Source: Kushneria sinocarnis
GTDB lineage: Bacteria > Pseudomonadota > Gammaproteobacteria > Pseudomonadales > Halomonadaceae
Length of the DNA: 64,000 bases
NCBI RefSeq assembly: GCF_003633775.1
Contig: NZ_RBIN01000008.1
Coordinates: 1 to 64,000 of the forward strand
Direction: 5' to 3'
Positions 31,620 to 36,611 of this stretch are shown here, piece by piece; within the stretch, counting starts at the first letter, position 1, and every line of letters starts with the position of its first letter. The notes below the pieces were generated by a model. That model did no database searches and was not told the DNA's origin. It was given only the letters and a program-made list of their open reading frames with translations. The position numbers were made by a program, and so were the translations under genes.

Positions 31620-33245
31620 CTACTCCGGGCTGTCGGCGGCCCTGTGCTGTATCGGCAGCACCAGCGAAAAGCGGGCCCCGCCCAGGGTGGTGGAAGTGTC
31701 GATGGCAACCTGGCCCTGATGCCACTGGGCCACCCGCGCCACGATCGCCAGTCCCAGCCCGTAGCCGCCCTGACGCTCACCGCGACGGGTACGGCTGTCA
31801 TCGAGCCGGGTAAAGGGCTTGAAGATGCGCTCGCGATCGCGTCGCGGCACCCCCTGGCCATCATCCTCGACATCGAACATGACCGAGTCCTCCTCGTTCA
31901 GGAGCGTGACCGTGACCCGGCGACGGGCATGATGACAGGCGTTGGCCACCAGATTCTGCAGCGCGCGCTGGATATAGCGGGCATCCACCACGGCGTCGGC
32001 GGGCTCGCCCTTTACCGTGATCTCGAGTGCGGGGTACATCGGCGCCAGCGAATCGACCACCTGCTCGGCCAGCGGCATCAGCGCCGTGGCGGTCGGCTCG
32101 AACATCAGACCGGTTTCGGTGGCGCTATCAAGGCGTGCATAGGCCAGAATCTCGTCGATCAGCCTGTCGATCGACTCGATGTCGCGATCGACCTCGCCGA
32201 GCTGACGCCGGATGGTCGGCGAATCGCTCATGTCCTCGACCATCTGCAGCGCAAAGCGAATGCGTGCCACCGGTGTGCGGAACTCATGGGAGACCGCCCG
32301 CATCATCTCCTGCTGCGCCGACAGCACGGCCTGCACCTGGGCGGCCATGCTGTTGAAGGCGGCGCCGAACTGGCCGAGATAATCGCTGCCGCGCGCCTCG
32401 ACGCGGGCATCGAAATCGCCCGCGGCAAAGCGCGAGGCTGCCTGCTCCATATGCCGCAGGCGCGACTCGACGCCCCGCACCAGCAGGTACACGATGATGC
32501 CCATCAGCATCAGCATGACCACCATCACCGCGCCGATGGAAACAACCGGCAGGGGCTCGAAAGGCCTGACCGGCCCGACCGTGATCCAGCGACCGTCCGC
32601 CAGCCGGGTATAGAGCGCCAGGCTGGGCCGCTCGGGCTCGACGTTCATGACCACCTGACCGGCATCGAGCTGCTCCAGCTGACTCGATGACAGCCCGGCC
32701 GGACTGCCGCTGCCGATGCCCATGGTCAGGGCGGTCTGATCACGCAGCGTCTGAAAGCGTGCCTCGCGCTGATCCTCGGGCACCGCATTGAGCCACTGGC
32801 GCAGCATCAGCATCAGCTGCTGTGGCTGACGCTCGGAGAGGCCGGTGAAATGCGCCACCAGCAGCGTGTCGGAGTCGGGCATGCGGCGAAACAGCCGCCA
32901 CCCCGAGTCACCGCTGGCCGGCCGGGTCACCACATCACCGTGATCGAGCTGGCGCCGCTCCCAGTAACCCAGCGCCAGCATTTCGGTATCAGTCAGCGCC
33001 AGGCCCATGCCGGTGCGATCCTGTTCCTGCTCCAGCCACGCGTTGCGACGCTCTTCGGGCTGGGCGGCGACCAGCGCCGTCAGCAGTGCCATCGGCGCCT
33101 CGGCAAGCCGCTCGCGATACTGCGCAGCCCGCCAATCGTTGACCATCGAGATGCCGAACAGACCCACGGCAAGGATCAGCAGCAGAGCGGCTACCAGGGC
33201 GATATAGACACGCAGGAAGACACCACCGGTCGACGCTCGGGACAT
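31620..33245 (-). CDS. rstB: Sensor histidine kinase, RstB type
   Basis: 541 residues, somewhat longer than E. coli RstB. TM1 is at 10-32 (RVYIALVAALLLILAVGLFG), with a ~200-residue periplasmic sensor, TM2 at about 230-255 (IGAVMVVMLMLMGIIVYLLV), HAMP (MEQAASRFAAGDFDARVEAR), the phosphoacceptor helix AVSHEFRTPVARIRFAL, and the ATPase with N box (ALQNLVANACHHA), DDGQGVP and GYGLGLAIV boxes. The catalytic parts match RstB. It would phosphorylate the RstA-like regulator 73 bases upstream. The stimulus is not known. Confidence 0.88.
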   Translation of the reverse strand: MSRASTGGVFLRVYIALVAALLLILAVGLFGISMVNDWRAAQYRERLAEAPMALLTALVAAQPEERRNAWLEQEQDRTGMGLALTDTEMLALGYWERRQLDHGDVVTRPASGDSGWRLFRRMPDSDTLLVAHFTGLSERQPQQLMLMLRQWLNAVPEDQREARFQTLRDQTALTMGIGSGSPAGLSSSQLEQLDAGQVVMNVEPERPSLALYTRLADGRWITVGPVRPFEPLPVVSIGAVMVVMLMLMGIIVYLLVRGVESRLRHMEQAASRFAAGDFDARVEARGSDYLGQFGAAFNSMAAQVQAVLSAQQEMMRAVSHEFRTPVARIRFALQMVEDMSDSPTIRRQLGEVDRDIESIDRLIDEILAYARLDSATETGLMFEPTATALMPLAEQVVDSLAPMYPALEITVKGEPADAVVDARYIQRALQNLVANACHHARRRVTVTLLNEEDSVMFDVEDDGQGVPRRDRERIFKPFTRLDDSRTRRGERQGGYGLGLAIVARVAQWHQGQVAIDTSTTLGGARFSLVLPIQHRAADSPE

Positions 33246-33318: not shown

Positions 33319-34029
33319 TTACAGCTCCCGGACAAACAGATAGCCCTTGCTGCGAACCGTCTTGATGCGCTGGGGATGGTGGGGATCGTCACCGATCTTG
33401 GGACGGATGCGCGACACGCGCACATCGATCGAACGATCCTGACCGTCGTAACGGATACCGCGCAGGGCGGAGAAGATCTCTTCCCGGGTCAGCACCCGGC
33501 CGGCATTGGAGGCCAGCAGCCAGAGCAGATCGAACTCGGCACTGGTCAGGTCGATACGCTCGCCGTTGAGCCAGGCCTCGCGGGTGGAAGAGTCCACCAC
33601 CAGGTCGCGGAACTCGAGCCGGGTTTCGCCACCGGCCGCCTCGGCGGCATCGGAACGGCGCAGCAGCGCTCGCATGCGTGCCAGCAGCACGCGCGGCGGC
33701 ACCGGCTTGGGCACATAGTCGTCGGCCCCCATCTCCAGGCCGAGCACCTGATCCATGTCATCGGTGCGCGCCGTCAGCATCAGGATCGGTCCGGTATACT
33801 GCTGACGTACCCGTCGGCAGATCGACAGACCATCCTCGCCCGGCAACATCAGATCGAGAATCACGAGATCAGGGCGCAGGGCCAGAATACGTTCCGCTCC
33901 GTTGCTGCCATCATGCTCGACGGTGACCTGGAAACCGTTGCCTTCCAGATATTCGCGCGTCAGGGCTGCCAGACGTTCGTCGTCCTCGATGATGAGAATG
34001 TGTTCCTGAGCAGTCGTGGGCGTATTCAA
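33319..34029 (-). CDS. rstA: OmpR-family response regulator, RstA type
   Basis: 236 residues. The receiver domain has acidic pocket IIEDDERL, phospho-acceptor in DLVILDLMLPGEDGLSI, switch residues LMLTART and a conserved lysine in DDYVPKPVPPRVLLARM, the proline-rich form characteristic of RstA. The C-terminal winged-helix DNA-binding domain has LTSAEFDLLWLLASNAGRVL and the recognition helix RSIDVRVSRIRPKIG. It pairs with the downstream kinase. RstA controls envelope and stress genes in enterobacteria. Targets here are unknown. It is divergent from the RNR-like gene, with a 254-base shared control region. Confidence 0.9.
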   Translation of the reverse strand: MNTPTTAQEHILIIEDDERLAALTREYLEGNGFQVTVEHDGSNGAERILALRPDLVILDLMLPGEDGLSICRRVRQQYTGPILMLTARTDDMDQVLGLEMGADDYVPKPVPPRVLLARMRALLRRSDAAEAAGGETRLEFRDLVVDSSTREAWLNGERIDLTSAEFDLLWLLASNAGRVLTREEIFSALRGIRYDGQDRSIDVRVSRIRPKIGDDPHHPQRIKTVRSKGYLFVREL

Positions 34030-34283
34030 GGCTGTATCCGTCCGATCGTCTTGAAAGAGGCATCCGTGCCATCATCAGGCGCGGCGCTTGTATGAAGTAA
34101 TCCGCGCGGCCGAGCGCGATAGCCATCAACTGGGCACCTTAATGGATTTTTCAATCAGGCCCAATTGCCGCAGCGGATATTGCATTATTCCACATGACCC
34201 TTCCCCGCTCATGGTGCGATCGTGCCATGCAAGGGCAGGCCATACTACCCGTTCCTCGTTCCACCAGCCACCGGGAGCCGCCG

Positions 34284-35909
34284 ATGTGCGCTCATTCACA
34301 CCCGTCGGACAGCCATTCGCATACCGGCGCAGGATCATTCGCTGACACCATTGCGCAGGGTATCGAAACGGGTCGGCTCGACCCGCACCTCGAGCGTTTC
34401 GAGCTGCCCCGGCTGGCCCGTGTCGTACAACGGCGTGAAACCACCATCCTGGACAATACCGATTGCCGAACGTTCCGGGCCCTGTCCAACGAATCCCCCG
34501 CCGGGCTGCTGATGCGCACTGCCATGGGACTGGCGTGTCATGAGTCACGGCCCGACGAGCAGGCGCTGCACTTCTTTGAGCTGATGGCCGATGGTGACTT
34601 CCTGCCTGCACCGATGGTGCTGCGCCATGCCGGTACCCGAACGATAGCGGCGCCCGAGGGCGTGATGGACCCGGCGGCCACCGCCGCCCGGGGAGCCAAT
34701 GACTGGCGGGAGGGAGACACCCTGGTGCTCTCCTCGCTCGCTGCCGAGCAATGGCCGCGCCCGCCTGCAGGCTGCTGCCTCGCCCTGAGCGCCTGGCACG
34801 CCGATCTGGATACCTTTCTCTCGCGCCTCGTACCGACACCGGGCATTGCCACCATGATCTGGCTGCCCGACCTGTTCATGAAGCGCCTCGCCGAGGATGG
34901 CGAGTGGAGTCTGTTCCCGCCGGCGCAATGTCCGGAGCTGAATGTGCTCTACGGCGCCGCCTTCGAGGCGCGCTATATCGAGCATGAGCGCCACGCGGCC
35001 CGGACCCCCGGCCAGCATGTCGAACGTCTCCGGGCCCGCGAGCTCTGGCAGCGGCTGATGCAACTGCTGAACGAATGTGGCGGCCCCTGGCCGGCCTTTC
35101 GTGACACCTGCAATCTGGCCAGCCTGCAGCGCCACGCCGGCGTGGTGCAGGCCACCAGCGCCGATGGCGCGCTGCTGCTCAACAGCGATGCCGATACCAC
35201 CGCAACCGCCGTACGGGGCGTCATCAACCTTGAACGCCATCTTCACGGTGACCTGCCCGATGCAGCACGCCTGCGGGAGATCGCCCGGAGCGCCGTGCGC
35301 ATGCTCGACAATGCCATCGAGCTGCTGGCAGCCGATCCCCGGGCGGCTCGCTCGCTCCGCTACTACCGGGCACTGGGCATCGCCCCCGGCGGGCTGGCCG
35401 AGGCCCTTGCCGGCCCGGAAGCGCATGACCGGTCTCAGCAGCTCGACGCCCTGGTCGGCCACTTTGCCCGGGCAGTCATCGAGGCCTCGCGGATACTGGC
35501 CGTTGAGCGCGGTGCCTGCCCCGCCTTCGCCGGCTCGCTCTGGCAGCAGGGGGCACTGCCGCAGGATGCGCCCGCCATGATCCGGCGTGAACGGGGCGAT
35601 GAGTGGTGCGACTTCCCGGATGACAGCGAGGTACCGAGCGCGACTGCCGGGCTGCGTGACGAAATTGCGTGTCAGGGGCTTCGCAACCTCGCCCTGATGG
35701 CCGCAGGCGCACACGGCGGGTTGTCGCAATTACCGATTTCACTCGCCGATGGCTCGGCCTTTTCACTGGAGCAGATGGCCGGCGCACAACGCCATCTCGA
35801 TCAGGGCTGGGCAGTAGCAGGGCCCCTCCGAAGGGAAGGCGGGGAAGCGCCGAGCCTTCGAATCCAGCGCGCCTGGCGGCTGGGCATTCGAACCCTGCCG
35901 GCACCGTGA
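34284..35909 (+). CDS. Ribonucleotide reductase large-subunit-like pseudoenzyme
   Basis: 541 residues from ATG 34284, with GGGAG 6 bases upstream. A His/Ser-rich start is followed by a chain that aligns with class I RNR alpha (NrdA) core: LMRTAMGLACHESRPDEQAL (~76-95), WLPDLFMKRLAEDGEWSLF (~193-211), PWPAFRDTCNLASLQRHAGV (~268-287), TAVRGVINLERHLHGD, SAVRMLDNAIEL, RYYRALGIAPGGLAEAL, GSLWQQGALPQDAP and QGLRNLALMAAGAHG. The catalytic Asn-x-Cys-x-Glu of NrdA (NLCTE/NLCLE) is S-A-D-G-A at 292-296. Both redox cysteines of the barrel are gone, there is no ATP cone, and the C-terminal third with the radical-transfer tyrosines and CxxC tail is missing. It cannot reduce nucleotides by the known mechanism. 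It may bind nucleotides or RNR subunits. The homology is clear to me and the function is unknown. Confidence 0.75.
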   Translation: MCAHSHPSDSHSHTGAGSFADTIAQGIETGRLDPHLERFELPRLARVVQRRETTILDNTDCRTFRALSNESPAGLLMRTAMGLACHESRPDEQALHFFELMADGDFLPAPMVLRHAGTRTIAAPEGVMDPAATAARGANDWREGDTLVLSSLAAEQWPRPPAGCCLALSAWHADLDTFLSRLVPTPGIATMIWLPDLFMKRLAEDGEWSLFPPAQCPELNVLYGAAFEARYIEHERHAARTPGQHVERLRARELWQRLMQLLNECGGPWPAFRDTCNLASLQRHAGVVQATSADGALLLNSDADTTATAVRGVINLERHLHGDLPDAARLREIARSAVRMLDNAIELLAADPRAARSLRYYRALGIAPGGLAEALAGPEAHDRSQQLDALVGHFARAVIEASRILAVERGACPAFAGSLWQQGALPQDAPAMIRRERGDEWCDFPDDSEVPSATAGLRDEIACQGLRNLALMAAGAHGGLSQLPISLADGSAFSLEQMAGAQRHLDQGWAVAGPLRREGGEAPSLRIQRAWRLGIRTLPAP

Positions 35910-36269
35910 AACGATGACACGCCCCGGGGAAGTGCAGATGGAGAAAACGGCCCGATTCGAAAAATTCCGCTCGATCTTTGCCAGCCATACTCCGGCACGA
36001 CTGCCCATGTTACCGGAAATTACCGACAGCAAAAGAATAAACGCCTTGAAAACAGCAACCTGCCAGAGGTTTGCCAAACGGGAGAGGAGCCGGTACAAAC
36101 GAGCAACACCCCGGCGTTGGCGCGCCGGGGTGTCATGAATACACGTCGAAAGTTGGCGCTTTCGCGTGCCGAGCAGGCGATGGCCTACCCACTGGTGATC
36201 AAAGTTTGACCGCCATCCCTGTTCGAGTCAAGGCAATCAATCACTTAACCGATCGACTCGGGGGAACAG
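35910..36269. other. 360-base gap with a hairpin
   Basis: No convincing gene is present. Short frames here lack ribosome sites and family character. The only structure is an 11-base perfect stem ACACCCCGGCG/CGCCGGGGTGT (36106-36116/36123-36133) with a 6-base loop and no T-run, which may end the RNR-like transcript or fold the leader of the next gene. A single TTAA at about 36244 has no partner. Confidence 0.6.
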
Positions 36270-36611
36270 ATGTCAATGCCGCTCAACGCCTATATCGTGA
36301 CCTGTACCGTGGAGCCCGAAACCCGGCGTTTCGAACGCATCGAACGCGAGCTCGACCGCTGCGTGTCCTGGACCGCCCTCTCCTCCACGACATGGCTGGT
36401 CGCCACCGAGCAGTCCGCCGAACAGCTGATGCGTCAGCTGCGCCTGCACGCCGAGAACACCGAGGCCGTCTACGTGATGGGGATGGCCGACCCCATGGAA
36501 GGCTATGGACCGCAGCGCATCAACCGATGGCTCAATCGTCACGTGCCGCATGGCAACGTGGTGCCGCTGCGTGCGGTGCGAGGCCGTGACGCAAGCCTCT
36601 CCACACACTGA
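36270..36611 (+). CDS. Small hypothetical protein, ferredoxin-like fold suspected
   Basis: 113 residues, with GGGGGAA just before ATG 36270. I do not recognise a named family with confidence. The order YIVTCTV (strand), ETRRFERIERELDRCV (helix), SWTALSSTTWLVATE (two strands), SAEQLMRQLRLHA (helix), EAVYVMGMADP (strand) is the beta-alpha-beta-beta-alpha-beta of Cas2/SinR-like small proteins, with a basic C-terminal tail. No cas genes or repeats are nearby, so it is not a CRISPR protein. It stands alone, 53 bases from convergent purK. Confidence 0.6.
   Translation: MSMPLNAYIVTCTVEPETRRFERIERELDRCVSWTALSSTTWLVATEQSAEQLMRQLRLHAENTEAVYVMGMADPMEGYGPQRINRWLNRHVPHGNVVPLRAVRGRDASLSTH

Follow-up and report, generated by a model that had tools for sequence, protein, structure and literature searches.

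A predicted catalytically dead homologue of the ribonucleotide reductase large subunit at the nrdA site in two Kushneria species

The window analysed here, a 64,000-nt stretch of the Kushneria sinocarnis genome (G000), contains an uninterrupted reading frame for a 541-aa protein with the marks of a ribonucleotide reductase (RNR) large subunit (Table 1), which we refer to as the relic. Divergently transcribed from it lie genes for an RstA-like response regulator and an RstB-like sensor kinase, which score 257 and 276 bits and so miss the NCBI equivalog cut-offs of 330 and 478 bits, respectively. Two sequences of the relic are known, the one in the window and the one in another congeneric genome, G125; in both genomes the gene sits between rstA and a 113-aa reading frame (orf113) followed by purK.

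Table 1. Features at and around the relic, in window coordinates
Feature	Coordinates	Strand	Basis and remarks
RstB-like sensor kinase	31620..33245	-	Profile matches, synteny
RstA-like response regulator	33319..34029	-	Adjoins nrdA in congeners and in 8 further genera; profile matches, synteny
rstA-relic intergenic region and 5' leader	34030..34283	+	88% identical between species; native NrdR boxes absent
Predicted dead NrdA homologue (relic)	34284..35909	+	541 aa; judged by synteny, native nrdA that has degenerated in place; Pfam, NCBIfam and PDB matches, alignment to congeneric NrdA, omega
Segment of residues 272-319	35097..35240	+	41/48 identical between species vs 59% overall; inside the most identical stretch (windows of 30, 48 and 60; picked after looking)
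Ex-catalytic loop	35157..35171	+	NLCTE to SADGA, residues 292-296; same in both species; alignments
113-aa reading frame (orf113) at the place of nrdB	36270..36611	+	Distant copies adjoin rstA in G005, G117 and G118

Profile and structure-database matches identify the protein as a homologue of class I NrdA. Pfam Ribonuc_red_lgN matches residues 70-119 (E = 1.3e-8) and Ribonuc_red_lgC residues 161-482 (E = 3.3e-39), the NrdA of P. aeruginosa (PDB 5im3) is matched at E = 4e-58, and the NCBIfam model PRK07207 yields 240.5 bits, its family cut-off being 965. When aligned with congeneric NrdA proteins (in one alignment with three of the eight full-length sequences, in another with all eight), the relic still has its helical domain and the scaffold of the barrel, up to and including the helix that precedes the Tyr-Tyr dyad, and its residues 495-538 align with the last NrdA helices. 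A sequence-only reading of this DNA had described a likeness to class I NrdA over about 480 residues; the homology is confirmed, and it continues to about residue 538.

The same alignments locate what has been lost, with individual residues and loops given the roles that we take them to have in NrdA. The catalytic loop NLCTE, whose Asn, Cys and Glu are retained in 8/8 native congeneric proteins, reads SADGA in the relics of both species, so that Ser292, Asp294 and Ala296 occupy the three catalytic positions exactly as the sequence-only reading had numbered them. That reading had also correctly noticed the absence of both barrel redox cysteines (the first is deleted together with a 10-residue loop, the second is replaced by A309) and of the ATP cone and C-terminal tail: 231 N-terminal NrdA residues, the ATP cones among them, have no counterpart, and the protein ends just short of the Tyr-Tyr dyad, without the dyad or the CxxC tail, 67 native residues being absent after residue 538. 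Beyond these, a 29-residue deletion after residue 149 presumably removed the effector (specificity-site) loops, the APTATIS phosphate loop is replaced, and 47 and 23 residues are deleted after residues 483 and 494, respectively.

An AlphaFold2 model of the relic, computed from 43 sequences (the window protein together with 8 loci from genomes and 34 of 80 viral loci), had a pLDDT of 77 and a pTM of 0.83, and superposed on 5im3 with a Z score of 39.1 and an rmsd of 2.8 over 497 residues (VIA-align); with 9 sequences as input, the model had been of poor quality (pLDDT 54). Since the input alignment consisted of NrdA proteins, the model supports the RNR fold rather than proving it. Sequence profiles and predicted fold thus both indicate an RNR barrel, and residue-by-residue homology over the helical domain and barrel ties the relic to the PRK07207-type class I enzymes represented by P. 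aeruginosa NrdA. Unlike a functional enzyme of this type, however, the relic lacks the catalytic residues, the redox cysteine pair, the ATP cones, the effector (specificity-site) loops, the Tyr-Tyr/CxxC radical-transfer tail and an nrdB in its operon. Judged from its sequence, it is a catalytically dead class I NrdA homologue that cannot act as a reductase.

Comparison with congeneric genomes revealed that the relic occupies the nrdA site. In 8/10 of these genomes we found a single full-length NrdA barrel (its frame spans about 1000 codons; of the PRK07207 type in G122, the sole congener tested) and a single NrdB, whereas the other two, G000 and G125, carry the relic plus one other NrdA and one NrdB each. 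The gene order lysR-rstB-rstA-relic is that of lysR-rstB-rstA-nrdA in all eight congeners with full-length nrdA, and two further genes are collinear with the window in these eight (the last one matching partly in L084). The divergent arrangement of rstA and full-length nrdA recurs in 8/8 genomes sampled from other genera, the comparison there covering the position and length of the gene. Around the relic, 12 of the 13 neighbours probed are 74-98% identical between G000 and G125 and one gave no match, as compared with 58-59% for the relic itself. No nrdB lies at the site, orf113 and then purK being found instead, and in G000 the one NrdB that was detected is encoded on another contig. By synteny, the relic is therefore the native nrdA itself, in place, rather than a paralogue that accompanies a normal gene of the same type; it shares its genomic site with the full-length nrdA of its congeners, and differs from it in having neither an adjoining nrdB nor NrdR boxes.

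Similarity scores count against an origin in situ, with the relic scoring slightly higher against NrdA of another genus (up to 230 bits) than against congeners (up to 213.5). In a tree built on all columns, which carried a long-branch warning, both relics separated from every NrdA, and a tree on shared columns placed them beside a congeneric NrdA; as none of the four placements tried is rejected by the AU test, the in-situ origin rests on synteny. The RstAB-like system, which had been proposed as a possible controller of the gene, is indeed its divergent neighbour, but we do not take this as a sign of a dedicated controller: rstAB flanks full-length nrdA in the eight congeners and in eight other genera alike.

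The region upstream of the relic has diverged from that of the native genes in its regulatory signals. When scored against what we take to be the NrdR box consensus, each of the eight native nrdA genes of the genus has two boxes, with 14-15 and 12-14 of 16 matches, spaced 31-33 bases apart. A box spacing of about three helix turns is given in PMC9110341. No NrdR boxes were detected in the upstream region of either relic (best score, 9 of 16), and the other nrdA of G000 has one box (13 of 16). The 254 bases between rstA and the relic are nevertheless more conserved between species than the relic coding DNA (88% versus 65.5% identity), although part of this conservation may belong to rstA.

The second NrdAB of G000 is encoded at L083:9723-13182, on contig 5, and its NrdA, of the PRK09209 type, retains SSNLCTE, the redox cysteines, the YY dyad and CxxC. 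Its counterpart in G125 is 98% identical over the 420 residues searched. A co-occurrence of the dead gene with one other nrdAB elsewhere, a check suggested along with the sequence-only reading, holds in both genomes. Over the same 420 residues the NrdA proteins of three other genera are 85-88% identical to that of G000, and the PRK09209 type therefore seems to have spread, or to have been patchily kept, within the family. The accompanying NrdB has the tail NGFDDL, as opposed to GGAL(S/T)WD in the native NrdB.

Despite the loss of its active site, the relic evolves as a protein-coding gene. Across its 1626 nt the copies in G000 and G125 contain no stop and are separated by four gaps, each a multiple of 3, as compared with four gaps in the 360-nt spacer 3' of the gene, none of which is a multiple of 3. 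The estimated omega is 0.20 (dN 0.33, dS 1.67; 2dlnL = 148.7 against omega = 1, p = 3e-34), a value derived from two sequences only at a dS near saturation. A decaying pseudogene whose frame had been kept by chance in a G+C-rich genome would fit the fast evolution of the relic (59% identity, versus 75-99% in ten neighbours whose omega is 0.01-0.10 at a dS of 0.64-1.63), as well as its lower GC3 (0.76 in G000 and 0.66 in G125, versus 0.80-0.83 in three G000 neighbours), its very long stem branch and its weakly constrained ends (residues 1-60 have an omega of 0.55, and residues 482-541 one of 0.62 that does not differ from 1). We nonetheless regard such decay as very improbable given the omega of 0.20 and the exclusively in-frame gaps, and because neutral drift simulated to half the relic dS, one lineage's share, introduced 4-20 stops in every one of 200 runs. 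Stops and frameshifts are absent, and an omega indistinguishable from 1 is confined to the last 60 residues taken alone. The intact frame in both species, together with the dN/dS of 0.20, therefore argues that the relic is no pseudogene, and bears out the earlier view of a scaffold and reading frame kept under purifying selection, with an orthologue free of stops rather than riddled with them. As the large deletions are common to both relics, the death of the enzyme preceded the species split and the constraint followed it.

At the positions invariant in the eight native NrdA proteins, 140 residues are kept in the relics and 146 are replaced by the same new residue in both, including a run across the catalytic loop; at the remaining positions one relic (57 positions) or both (122) differ, the alignment at the ends being unsure. 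The most identical stretch of the two relics is the old catalytic region (residues 293-322, 90% in a window of 30; 273-320, 85% in a window of 48; 292-351, 78% in a window of 60), the best corresponding windows before residue 260 reaching 83, 79 and 75%. Within it, the loop SADGALLLNSDADT is identical in 14/14 residues, with 3/14 codons changed, all silently. A p value of 8e-5 for residues 272-319 is indicative only, since the segment was picked after looking. Window omega, by contrast, is lowest at residues 91-240 (0.00-0.05, shaky at such dS) and amounts to 0.17-0.28 in the rebuilt region. Selection has held both the scaffold and the rebuilt barrel centre, which suggests that the relic now serves another role.

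Judging by conservation, the relic probably now acts as a binding protein whose small-molecule ligand or partner would sit at the rebuilt loop of the barrel; it may also have gained an enzymatic activity. One specific proposal is an enzyme or small-molecule sensor in which the RNR barrel would carry out non-radical chemistry or hold a new ligand, D294 and the SADGALLLNSDADT loop being placed where the active site used to be. It would account for the position of the rebuilt loop in the most identical stretch and for the fixation of the new loop residues before the split, but the conservation may equally be structural, three differing codons are a small sample, window omega is lower elsewhere, and neither a ligand nor a co-transcribed pathway gene is at hand; we consider it unlikely. 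Also on the unlikely side is the idea that, after its replacement, the old enzyme was converted in place into a protein of which the barrel serves radical-free chemistry or small-molecule sensing through the rebuilt catalytic loop. Were this true, no earlier exaptation of an RNR large subunit in bacteria would be known to us.

A regulator of the new reductase, that is, a truncated R1 that binds and titrates the C-terminal tail of NrdB, or NrdA, appears to us improbable. The relic does retain both segments matching WHADLDTFL and AWRLGIRTL, which we take to be helices of the NrdB-tail pocket, and it ends right after the second. However, its C-terminal 60 residues are the least constrained of the protein, the ATP cones and the presumed effector-loop stretch are deleted, and the NrdR boxes are lost. 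A role as NrdB decoy in particular is unlikely because the would-be tail-binding helix is under almost no constraint, the native NrdB has disappeared and the new NrdB has a different tail. Nucleotide sensing of the NrdA kind is likewise unlikely, as the active site, effector loops, phosphate loop and ATP cones are all gone. The two functions guessed from the sequence, nucleotide binding and regulation of RNR, thus found little or no footing.

We favour, as a probable account, that the native NrdA was displaced by an NrdAB encoded elsewhere, stripped in place and kept under selection as a pseudoenzyme. In the ancestor of the two species, the native NrdAB would have lost its job to the different NrdAB, and nrdB would then have been lost. 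The nrdA gene would have been stripped where it stood, shedding the ATP cones, effector loops, redox cysteines, radical-transfer tail and NrdR control while its catalytic loop was rebuilt, and the leftover scaffold of helical domain and barrel would since have been held by purifying selection. The order of these events is one that we infer; an R1 scaffold held by selection without its catalytic residues, the hallmark of an RNR pseudoenzyme, is what the two relics present. If this history is right, DNA synthesis should not depend on the relic gene, and deleting it should be feasible.

Few essential enzymes are as conserved as RNR. Yeast Rnr4, an inactive R2, is a subunit of it that survives without activity of its own; Rnr4 differs from the relic in being a small subunit that is still part of the enzyme. 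The closest precedent, as the sequence-only reading had anticipated in pointing to viral R1 homologues, is the inactive R1 of beta-herpesviruses (HCMV UL45, MCMV M45), which, according to PMC5469499, lacks the greater part of its catalytic residues and intervenes in host RIP1 signalling. As in those proteins, the R1 scaffold is kept in the relic and the catalytic residues are lost, retention for a role outside RNR being established for the viral proteins and probable for the relic; unlike them, the relic is encoded on a bacterial chromosome, at the site of nrdA. A full-text search with few terms, covering few subscription papers (PMC9669993 and PMC4390871 among its sources), yielded no bacterial use of the RNR barrel for another role, in line with the sequence-only reading, which knew of no bacterial case. 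On our best reading, what is new here is an RNR pseudoenzyme that is bacterial and was exapted at the enzyme's own locus after displacement.

The relic is narrowly distributed. Among 275 genomes of the family, a second copy was found in G125 only (E = 1e-193, 59% identity), the next best match (4e-68) lying in a long NrdA frame; because the PF02867 survey of these genomes covers best matches only, weak barrels may exist in other genera. A search of 389 other genomes from the order, a sample without G125, gave no further match at E <= 1e-70, and 368 others from the class gave none at E <= 1e-75. A contig scan using short exact peptide words, with near relatives excluded, returned 27 loci of 24-32% identity, and plasmid and phage matches were all below 60% identity (26-31% among the eight matches listed for each). 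Among the best 80 of 379 viral relatives, 79 contain N-x-C-x-E somewhere, the other being a 61-residue fragment that results from the choice of start. As a separate observation, 188 plasmid records contain a relative of this protein, and 143 of them are named Acinetobacter.

In 126 of the 275 family genomes the relic had no match or one weaker than 1e-48. Of these we picked 21 and searched them for rstA, which 20 possessed. With both relics and both NrdA types as tblastn queries, nothing was found beside rstA in these 20 genomes (within 1.5 kb; 377 bases in L096), nor did the 16 kb around rstA in four of them contain a relic or NrdA. If these 20 lineages once had nrdA by rstA, its loss has been clean and its retention in the two Kushneria species exceptional. 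The state before displacement (the eight congeners), the 20 genomes without native nrdA or relic by rstA and the exapted state (two species) can be compared at one site, which makes the fate of a displaced essential enzyme directly amenable to study.

The reading frame at the place of nrdB, orf113, is found beside rstA in 3/20 of the genomes without relic (G005, G117 and G118), as distant copies of 34-37% identity. Its omega is 0.037, and it matches no Pfam family above cut-off and no NCBIfam model. Upstream of it, about 160 bases (36109-36269) that match no Rfam family at its gathering score are nearly identical between G000 and G125, with a folding z of -2.9 and a terminator-like hairpin on the minus strand (36135-36104); this stretch is possibly a small RNA or a leader.
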